Origin: Malonomonas rubra | Lineage (GTDB): Bacteria > Desulfobacterota > Desulfuromonadia > Desulfuromonadales > Geopsychrobacteraceae | Assembly (NCBI RefSeq): GCF_003247215.1 | Contig: NZ_QKAP01000104.1 | Location: 1 to 39,263, forward strand | DNA length: 39,263 bases | Reading direction: 5' to 3' | Part shown: positions 4,792 through 20,535 of the stretch, piece after piece | Position numbering within the stretch: position 1 is the stretch's first letter | Layout: every line of letters begins with the position of its first letter | Made by a program: the position numbers and the translations under genes | The notes under the pieces: model-generated | What the model saw: only the letters and a program-made list of their open reading frames with translations | Database searches by the model: none | What the model was told of the DNA's origin: nothing

Positions 4792-6228
4792 ATGTCGATT
4801 AATCGTATACTTGTTGCCGATGATGAAGAAAGTATCCGCTGGGTTCTTTCCCGGGCGTTGAAAAAAAAAGGGTTTACGGTGGATCTAGCGGAAGACGGCA
4901 AGCAGGCTCTCAGCATGTTCCGCAACAACCGCTATGATCTCGCGGTGCTTGATATCAAGATGCCCGGACTGCAAGGGCTGGAACTTCTCAAACAGGTCCA
5001 GGCAGACTACCCAGAGACTCTGGTGGTGATCATGACCGCAGAGTCGACCATGGAAAACGCCGTAGCTGCAATGAAAAACGGCGCCTACGACTACCTCACC
5101 AAACCATTTGACTTGGATGCCCTGGACGCCATCATTCTGAAAGCACAAAAAGCCGCCGAAGTCAGTGAACAAATCGGCCATCTAAAAGACGAACTTCAAG
5201 AGCAGTACAGTTTCGGGCGGACCATCATCGGCAACAGTCAGCCGATGCAGGAAGTCTACAAAACCCTCGGCCGGGTCGCCGGTTCGGATGTCACGGTACT
5301 GGTCACCGGTGAAAGCGGCACCGGCAAAGAACTGATCGCGCGGGCGATCCACTTCAACAGCCCGCGGCTAGGCAAGCCGTTTGTCGCCATCAACTGTGCG
5401 GCGATCCCGCGTGAACTCCTGGAAAATGAGCTGTTCGGCCACGAGCGGGGAGCTTTTACCGGCGCTACCGATCGCAAGGCAGGTAAATTCGAGCAGGCCA
5501 ACGGCGGCACCTTGTTCCTTGATGAAATTGGCGACATGCCGCTGGAGCTTCAGGCAAAACTGCTGCGCGTTTTGCAGGAAAAAGAGATCACCCGGACAGG
5601 CGGCAGCCAAACAATGCAGATCGATGTCCGCATCGTCGCGGCAACCAACCAGAATATTGCCGAACTGGTCGAAAAGAAGCAGTTCCGCGAAGACCTTTAC
5701 TACCGTCTCAACGTCGTACCGATCAGTCTTCCCGCGCTGAACCAGCGCAAAGACGACCTCCCGGCGCTGGTCGAATTCTTCCTTAAAAGAGCCCAAGATG
5801 AGCTCGGCGTAGGTCCCATCGAATGCAGCAAAGAGGCTCTTAACCTGCTCAAACGCCACAACTGGCCGGGCAACGTTCGCGAGCTGGAAAATGTCATCAA
5901 ACGGGCCACTCTGCTCTCCCCCAACAGCATCCTGATGCCATCCGATTTTCCGGGTCTGCTCAGCACTCCGGGGAACAAGAACCAGGATGAATCGCTTGAG
6001 ACCTTGGTTTTACGCAAGCTGGAGAGCTCTCTCGACCCGATGAACCTGCAAGAGTTGGACAATCTCTACGAAATGGTTCTTCATCAGGTGGAACGGCCAC
6101 TGATCAACATTGTCCTGCAGCAGACCCGCGGCAATCAGGTACGCACCGCCGAAATACTCGGCATCAACCGCAACACTTTGCGCAAGAAGATTAAGACCCT
6201 AGAAATTGACGTTAAACGGGGCAGCTAG
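4792..6228 (+). CDS. NtrC-family sigma-54-dependent response regulator
   Basis: A 478-residue transcriptional activator. Its receiver domain (about 1-120) has acidic residues D10-D11, phospho-acceptor Asp54 in AVLDIKMPG, Thr82 and Lys104. An AAA+ sigma-54 interaction domain (about 145-380) carries Walker A GESGTGKE at 173-180, the sigma-54-contacting loop GAFTGA at 220-225 and Walker B GTLFLDEIGD near 239-248. A Fis-type helix-turn-helix ends the protein (LQQTRGNQVRTAEILGINRN). It lies 11 bases after the kinase gene in the same operon. Full motif conservation indicates an active enhancer-binding protein. A sigma-54 promoter lies about 15.6 kb away, before the TRAP transporter; a regulatory link is possible but not shown. 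Confidence 0.94.
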   Translation: MSINRILVADDEESIRWVLSRALKKKGFTVDLAEDGKQALSMFRNNRYDLAVLDIKMPGLQGLELLKQVQADYPETLVVIMTAESTMENAVAAMKNGAYDYLTKPFDLDALDAIILKAQKAAEVSEQIGHLKDELQEQYSFGRTIIGNSQPMQEVYKTLGRVAGSDVTVLVTGESGTGKELIARAIHFNSPRLGKPFVAINCAAIPRELLENELFGHERGAFTGATDRKAGKFEQANGGTLFLDEIGDMPLELQAKLLRVLQEKEITRTGGSQTMQIDVRIVAATNQNIAELVEKKQFREDLYYRLNVVPISLPALNQRKDDLPALVEFFLKRAQDELGVGPIECSKEALNLLKRHNWPGNVRELENVIKRATLLSPNSILMPSDFPGLLSTPGNKNQDESLETLVLRKLESSLDPMNLQELDNLYEMVLHQVERPLINIVLQQTRGNQVRTAEILGINRNTLRKKIKTLEIDVKRGS

Positions 6229-9791: not shown

Positions 9792-9840
9792 ACCTTCACT
9801 CCTCAAACAAAAAGCTGCCCAGCAGAGTAACAGAAGAAAT

Positions 9841-9876
9841 AAAAAAGGCTCAACCGTTTTCGGTTGAGCCTTTAAG
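9841..9876 (-). terminator. Rho-independent terminator after the SEC-C gene
   Basis: A perfect 10-bp stem (9847-9856 with 9861-9870, loop TTTT) is followed on the minus strand by TTTTTTATTT. It lies 50-80 bases beyond the SEC-C stop and upstream of dnaB. Confidence 0.9.
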
Positions 9877-9920
9877 TTGCCAAATTATTTTTGACCCGCT
9901 CGGGTTTAGCAGTTCGATCC

Positions 9921-10123
9921 TCAGTTGAATAAGGATCGGCTGGTCTGCGCCGCCTGTTGCTTCTCTCTGATCAACTTCAGGGTTTCTTGATCCTGCGATT
10001 CATGACATCTCTTATATTTGGCACCGCTACCACACCAGCAAAGCTCGTTACGTTGTGGCAAAGGATGCGGTGGAGCGAGCAGTTTTTCCTTTGTTTTTTT
10101 TCAAAAAAACCCAGTAGAAACAT
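9921..10123 (-). CDS. Small SEC-C motif protein, read through a -1 frameshift at an A8 run
   Basis: ATG 10123 follows a strong GGAGG site with ideal spacing and encodes MFLLGFFEKK. The minus strand then has GAAAAAAAAC. In the initial frame no known motif follows. After a -1 shift at the A8 run the frame continues as TKEKLLAPPHPLPQRNEL and then CWCGSGAKYKRCHE, a perfect SEC-C zinc motif (C-x-C-x8-CH), and stops at 9921. The joined product has about 67 residues and an intact design. The motif frame has a stop (TGA) immediately upstream and no ATG or GTG start of its own. Either the A run has lost one base (mutation or sequencing error), or the gene uses -1 ribosomal or transcriptional slippage. 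SEC-C modules bind zinc and occur as the C-terminus of SecA or in small proteins of poorly known role. Confidence 0.75.
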
Positions 10124-10152
10124 AATTTGCCTCCGTGAATACAAATTCAATA

Positions 10153-10180
10153 TATTTAGATTTTGCGCTATCGATGTAAA
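10153..10180 (-). promoter_or_regulatory. Possible promoter of the SEC-C gene
   Basis: On the minus strand: TTTACA (10175-10180), a 16-base spacer and TAAATA (10153-10158), about 30 bases before the Shine-Dalgarno-equipped ATG. A moderate match only. Confidence 0.4.
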
Positions 10181-10200
10181 GCCATTTTTACACAGACCAT

Positions 10201-10242
10201 AAAAAAAGACGGAAGCCCCACCGGAGCATTCCGTCTTTTTTT
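10201..10242 (-). terminator. Rho-independent terminator of hisG-hisI
   Basis: A 14-bp uninterrupted stem (10201-10214 with 10229-10242) has T7 at the end of either strand, so it could act in both directions. It lies about 20 bases beyond the hisI stop. Confidence 0.92.
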
Positions 10243-10263
10243 CTTCTGACTTCATTGCTGACC

Positions 10264-10662
10264 TCAGGCCAGAACCAGATTCTTGCTCTGCAGGTCGACC
10301 TTGCGATAAAAGCAGGTCTCGCGGGTCTTGCCGGTCTCAGGATTTCTGGTGTGACAAGCACCGCCCCCCTGCGGTTCAACTTTGTAGATCAAGGCATCCT
10401 GATCGCAGTCGGTGAGAATCTCAACGATTTTCAAAAAATCACCAGAGGTTTCCCCTTTGGTCCAGAGTTCGTTGCGCGACGTTGACCAGAAAGTGGCCAT
10501 CCCTTTCTCCAGGGTCGTCTCATAGGCCTGCTGGTTGACATATGCGAGCATCAGCACCCGGCCATTTTTGACATCCTGAACTATCGCCGGCACGAAACCA
10601 CCCCGCTTTTCGAAATCAATACAAACTTCGCTACCTTCTTCGAGCATTTTCTTATCCATCAT
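10264..10662 (-). CDS. hisI: Phosphoribosyl-AMP cyclohydrolase
   Basis: Third step of histidine biosynthesis: opens the adenine ring of phosphoribosyl-AMP. The 132-residue protein is the monofunctional form, with no HisE domain. Characteristic blocks are FVPAIVQD, VLMLAYVN, FWSTSRNELWTKGETSG, the metal-binding acidic run DCDQDAL and the zinc cysteines in GGACHTRN and ETCFYR. The start is ATG 10662 (or the adjacent ATG 10659), with AGGAGA just upstream. It begins 7 bases after the hisG stop, so the two form a small operon ending at the terminator at 10201-10242. The other his genes are not in this window. Confidence 0.95.
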   Translation of the reverse strand: MMDKKMLEEGSEVCIDFEKRGGFVPAIVQDVKNGRVLMLAYVNQQAYETTLEKGMATFWSTSRNELWTKGETSGDFLKIVEILTDCDQDALIYKVEPQGGGACHTRNPETGKTRETCFYRKVDLQSKNLVLA

Positions 10663-20460: not shown

Positions 20461-20535
20461 TGGCTGGGGTACCAGGATTCGAACCTGGGAATGCCGGAAT
20501 CAAAATCCGGTGCCTTACCGCTTGGCGATACCCCA
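20461..20535 (-). tRNA. tRNA-Gln (anticodon TTG)
   Basis: A 75-nt cloverleaf on the minus strand. The acceptor stem is TGGGGTA/TACCCCA, the anticodon stem is CCGGA/TCCGG around a loop containing TTG, the T arm is CCAGG-TTCGAAT-CCTGG, and CCA is encoded. It sits between ispE and prs, as in Geobacter relatives. Confidence 0.97.

Follow-up and report, generated by a model that had tools for sequence, protein, structure and literature searches.

A frame-broken SEC-C mini-gene beside dnaB in Malonomonas rubra and its possible origin in a recent single-base indel at a poly-A run

The window analysed here, a stretch of 39,263 nucleotides from Malonomonas rubra (NZ_QKAP01000104.1), contains a SEC-C mini-gene whose start codon and zinc-motif part lie in different reading frames. 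Sequence comparison favours, with slightly better than even confidence, a recent single-base indel at or near a poly-A tract that shifted the SEC-C part out of its frame in this lineage alone. The coordinates of the mini-gene (9921–10123, minus strand) were confirmed, and it is flanked by hisI (Pfam PRA-CH) and dnaB (Pfam DnaB and DnaB_C). The identities of hisG and rplI in the window were also backed by Pfam matches. The sole Rfam match in the window was a tRNA gene at 20464–20535 on the minus strand. The features of the mini-gene and its surroundings are as follows.

10175–10180, minus strand: TTTACA, a possible −35 element of a candidate promoter of the mini-gene's own (pairwise alignment)
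10134–10130, minus strand: Shine–Dalgarno sequence GGAGG, six bases 5′ of the ATG at 10123–10121
10094–10123, minus strand: first ten zero-frame codons, MFLLGFFEKK; intact copies have a homologous N-terminus
10101–10094, minus strand: A8 run at the point of the frame break, zero-frame codons GAA AAA AAA CAA, including the heptamer A_AAA_AAA at 10100–10094
9921–10094, minus strand: C-terminal part in the −1 frame, with a proline-rich linker, the SEC-C motif CWCGSGAKYKRCH (Pfam PF02810), a charged tail and the stop codon TGA at 9923–9921 (translation)
9977–10123, minus strand: unshifted zero-frame product of 48 aa without the SEC-C motif, stop codon TGA at 9979–9977 (translation)
9844–9873, minus strand: intrinsic-terminator-like hairpin 3′ of the mini-gene, conserved in genome G029

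The initial annotation had described a GGAGG–ATG start opening MFLLGFFEKK, which only a −1 shift at the A8 run joins to a zinc motif with a normal stop and terminator, in a protein of about 67 residues. These elements were all recovered, and the ten codons and the C-terminal part together give a joined reading of 67 residues. The −1 frame becomes open immediately past a TGA codon that precedes the A8 run, and a T7 run (10109–10103) also lies ahead of it. The Pfam SEC-C model (PF02810) matched the 46-aa ORF containing the motif with an E-value of 5.2e-11 and 42.6 bits, against a gathering cut-off of 20.4, and the joined reading, given an X where the two frames meet, scored 41.7 bits, likewise above the cut-off. 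For the 48-aa zero-frame product, no Pfam match was found at E up to 1. A codon model applied to the C-terminal part scored the −1 frame at −1.3, compared with −21.0 and −25.4 for the other frames, a preference of about 20 natural-log units in which the best score was still not positive. Upstream of the mini-gene, TTTACA sits within GCTTTACAT, a stretch common to the syntenic copy in G029 by pairwise alignment; the output of a promoter scan did not include this candidate −35 element.

Homologues were sought at E 1e-6 in 136 genomes of the order, with one genome per species, and matches were found in 25, the window's own counted in. All of the 24 other homologues open from ATG and are 65–73 residues long (the start of L014 was placed at the ATG 70 codons before the stop; a TTG is also present upstream). 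The 22 closer homologues have in common a hydrophobic N-terminus, a PP..LP.RND linker and the motif CWC.S..KYKKCH. The joined reading aligns with the intact copies from end to end and is 52–59 % identical to those of the genus and of G051 and G052. The distance from the initial Met to PLP is 23 residues both in the window's reading and in G029, and 25 in G030. Phylogenetic reconstruction placed the joined reading in a seven-row group with the copies of the genus and of G051 and G052 (support 99/95), within which its fork with G029 was supported only at 88/34; the distant rows L027 and L028 were left out of the tree and of the invariant-column count given below. Judged by these comparisons, the joined reading is an ancestral gene and not a chance product, because its ten N-terminal residues and its C-terminal part align together with intact homologues and because the latter scores best in the −1 frame under the codon model. 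The family of SEC-C mini-proteins of about 70 residues (L005–L026) is patchy across the order, and no NCBIfam model reached its cut-off on the four sequences tried.

The most similar full-length dnaB was that of G029 (93 % over 458 residues); the mini-protein evolves fast, with 53 % identity between the same two genomes. G029 carries an intact mini-gene at the same place just upstream of dnaB, with the same terminator and a different neighbour on the other side. This copy is open from its ATG, so that the alignment of orthologues beside dnaB, which the initial annotation had put forward as a check, lends no support to a programmed shift. The break is a singleton, being present in none of the 24 other homologues of the order. 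The position of the mini-gene varies (window 9806–10264; L007, L008, L045, L048–L050). In G034 it is on the same contig as dnaB but on the opposite strand, some 3 kb ahead of that gene and separated from it by hisG and hisI, while in G030 and G032 the mini-gene and dnaB are on separate contigs. The gene directly before dnaB is rplI in G033 and G035. At E 1e-6 the mini-gene was not found in five of the ten genus genomes, among which G033 is 99 % complete and the other four are 76–86 % complete. The mini-gene looks dispensable from this distribution, because of these five genomes and because hisI directly precedes dnaB, without the mini-gene there, in three (G031, G032 and G034). Just upstream of dnaB in G033, G031 and G030 (L047, L048, L051) there is a repeat, palindromic in part and containing CCAAGGGCCGC and CAGACACCCTT, which probably represents an interspersed repeat of this genus; both 11-mers are absent from the window and from L045 of G029.

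An additional, intact copy elsewhere in this genome was also considered and rejected. A search with the 46-aa ORF at E up to 10 returned only the ORF itself and matches on C140 and C38, which sit in open frames of considerable length (486 and 1470); by its translation, the C38 match is presumably a SecA C-terminus. A class-wide search matched 36 of 277 genomes (seven rows are without a locus, and translations cover the 24 homologues only). No row had an internal stop, but this says little about frame breaks because the broken row of the window is also without one.

Nineteen alignment columns were invariant across 22 rows. The window keeps 17 of these, with D changed to E and K changed to R, in keeping with an earlier description of the downstream frame as well preserved. 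Comparison of the C-terminal part with five homologues gave pS of 0.66–0.85 and pN of 0.28–0.35, with synonymous far above non-synonymous change; a dN/dS ratio was not calculable for most pairs because synonymous sites were saturated. Branch lengths were 0.55 for the window and 0.55 for the intact copy in G029. Under neutral simulation, the chance of retaining an open frame and the 17 invariant residues was 0.60, 0.09 and 0.0085 at 0.01, 0.05 and 0.1 changes per site, respectively, a bound that is biased because the case was chosen for its open frame. No disabling changes other than the frame break were seen in the mini-gene. Retention of 17 of 19 invariant residues suggests that the break is recent, is an assembly error or has been tolerated through leaky slippage, and since there is little further decay the event would fall at the recent end; by this measure the break looks recent. 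Constraint on an intact C-terminal part is also expected of a gene that is still expressed, which counts against a recent indel, as does a window branch no longer than that of intact G029. The initial annotation had listed normal-frame orthologues combined with decay in this strain as evidence against its own proposal. The normal orthologues exist, in all 24 cases, but there is little decay beyond the frame itself.

The phase of the heptamer A_AAA_AAA is the one required for a −1 slip, which bears out part of an earlier designation of the run as a classic slippery site, but the same run occurs in the same phase in intact genes. Within the window, GAAAAAAAA (GAA-AAA-AAA) lies in this phase in the intact pth gene (18233–18226). 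It is also found in phase within intact ribF, and a DUF2201 gene contains it with an additional, ninth A; a Pfam match spans the A run in all three. Among 145 sampled ORFs of the genome there is no avoidance of A8 runs, with seven occurrences compared with 4.5 (sd 2.0) in synonymous shuffles; the corresponding counts were eight compared with 3.7 (sd 1.7) for T8, two compared with 2.4 (sd 1.3) for A9 and none compared with 1.8 (sd 1.2) for T9. An in-frame A9 run is present at codon 23 of a sigma-54-type response regulator ORF in the window (4792–6228). T and A runs of 6–8 are common in intact mini-gene copies, where they are natural because the family codes for Phe-Phe and Lys-Lys at this point, and G051 has A8 there in a normal frame. 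The A8 run here is not a special signal. Where a frame breaks at a slippery heptamer in the correct phase, the heptamer should be treated with caution, as weak evidence for recoding, if the family encodes Lys-Lys there and the run remains unshifted elsewhere in the genome, as in pth and ribF.

Folding of the downstream RNA in four slices gave z-scores of −2.40 (40 nt), −1.39 (50 nt), −0.03 (73 nt) and +0.60 (115 nt). The lowest value reflects a hairpin of seven pairs with a large loop that begins directly after the A8 run. Known frameshift stimulators lie some bases further downstream of the slippery site. The signal fades in the other three slices and is not robust, and the low value probably reflects the choice of slice. 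Upstream of the A8 run, only GGG at 10112–10110 is faintly Shine–Dalgarno-like.

The principal competitor to a real indel is that the run length was miscalled and that the genome truly carries an intact mini-gene, which we regard as a substantial though clearly lesser possibility. Apart from a single base in a homopolymer nothing in the mini-gene is irregular and its remainder looks constrained, the assembly comprises 149 contigs with a contamination of 3.75 %, and PMC3711429 anticipates that singletons validated by BLASTp are sequencing errors and not true indels. The pattern seen here, with G029 intact at the corresponding place and a break found only in the window, is that of a recent-indel pseudogene, yet it fits an assembly error equally well. 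Against a miscall, a codon-model scan covering 204,784 bases of the genome (ORFs of at least 450 nt, window included) detected no excess of breaks: there was one frame-break candidate in 145 ORFs, with no homopolymer of at least six bases near it. The scan recovered 32 of 60 artificial one-base deletions as a positive control, and it missed the SEC-C break itself because the mini-gene is too short for it. Its limits had been loosened after stricter settings gave zero candidates in a run without a positive control, and the number of ORFs sampled is 149 or 145 depending on the overlap rule. The lone candidate is L063 (G000 contig C7, about 2647). One error at the A8 site would be compatible with the absence of excess breaks in this sample.

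Other explanations have the SEC-C part still translated in some form. A real indel might be tolerated if unprogrammed slippage, by RNA polymerase on A8 or by −1 ribosomal shifting on A_AAA_AAA, yields some full-length protein; this seems improbable. It would suit the phase of the heptamer and the constraint on the C-terminal part, and there are precedents. According to PMC4066793, A_AAA_AAA is one of the motifs at which frameshifting in E. coli exceeds 0.10 % in the absence of stimulators, and it occurs commonly in elements of the IS1 and IS3 families; rescue at A runs is reported at about 20–25 % for tssM1 with 11 A's (PMC4256274) and at about a tenth of full-length product for the eight A's of human apoB (PMC1088944). 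The sampled ORFs do not avoid A8, however, the genes pth, ribF and DUF2201 remain in frame over the same run, and for a large share of genomes selection against A and T runs becomes visible at a length of nine, not eight (PMC1088944). It is very unlikely that selection maintains the A8 run as a switch, by way of programmed frameshifting or phase variation, controlling how much 48-aa relative to 67-aa product is made. The slippery heptamer and the hairpin directly after it could be read in this way, but the zero-frame product matches no Pfam family and the structure and the upstream GGG are as unconvincing as described above. A conserved frame transition among homologues, by which programmed frameshifts are recognized, was found in 0 of 24. 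Programmed control is not supported, because no homologue shifts, the run is intact in pth and ribF, A8 is not avoided and there is no convincing stimulator. That the A8 run now works as a slippage switch in M. rubra, giving a low level of SEC-C mini-protein beside the 48-residue product, is scarcely more probable; if true, it would explain the slight decay of the shifted part. Finally, the SEC-C part could be translated alone from a re-start, although we consider this most doubtful. The downstream frame had been said to have no start of its own, yet it does contain a CTG at 10082, closely preceded by AAAGGA, and a TTG at 10061, which heads the 46-aa ORF with the whole SEC-C motif. Both codons, however, correspond to internal positions of intact copies; there is no Shine–Dalgarno-like sequence before TTG 10061, and the good one belongs to ATG 10123. 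Of programmed control, mutation and a sequencing indel, all entertained in the initial annotation, mutation is thus favoured, followed by error, and programmed control falls away.

A recent indel would have started from an ordinary 67-residue SEC-C mini-gene upstream of dnaB, in which replication slippage at the homopolymer may have produced a real one-base change. Ribosomes would then start at ATG 10123 and terminate after 48 residues, giving a main product without the SEC-C motif, and any full-length protein would arise solely by unprogrammed leakage. Such a leaky product is possible and would probably be small, because shifting in E. coli exceeds 0.10 %, selection on runs shows at nine and apoB with A8 gives about a tenth. 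The mini-gene most likely no longer works well.

The role of the mini-protein can be suggested only by analogy. SecB is a binding partner of the metal-binding domain of SecA, and YecA has been suggested as a SecB-interacting chaperone in work termed un-peer-reviewed (both PMC8076867). In the literature on SecA-like and SEC-C domains no title concerns such mini-proteins, which is thin evidence of absence, and the patchy family could interest students of SecA-like metal-binding domains.

Frame-broken genes at homopolymers are known from several systems. In the GeneTack analysis, programmed sites are those in clusters of at least five members that share a conserved site, whereas singletons represent indel mutations or sequencing errors (PMC3711429). 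Like those singletons, the mini-gene is broken at a homopolymer in one genome and has intact homologues, but it is very short and shows little other decay so far. Genes rescued by transcriptional slippage, such as tssM1 of Citrobacter rodentium (PMC4256274) and those of IS elements (PMC1088944), likewise combine a break at an A run with a conserved downstream frame; tssM1, however, has 11 A's compared with eight in the mini-gene, whose genome has ordinary A8 runs in ORFs. The mini-protein shares the CxCGSGxxYKxCH motif with the SEC-C domains (PF02810) of SecA, YecA and YchJ, and the PDB sequence matches of the intact G029 copy are SecA peptides and YchJ. Unlike these proteins, it is free-standing, with about 70 residues and a short hydrophobic N-terminus.
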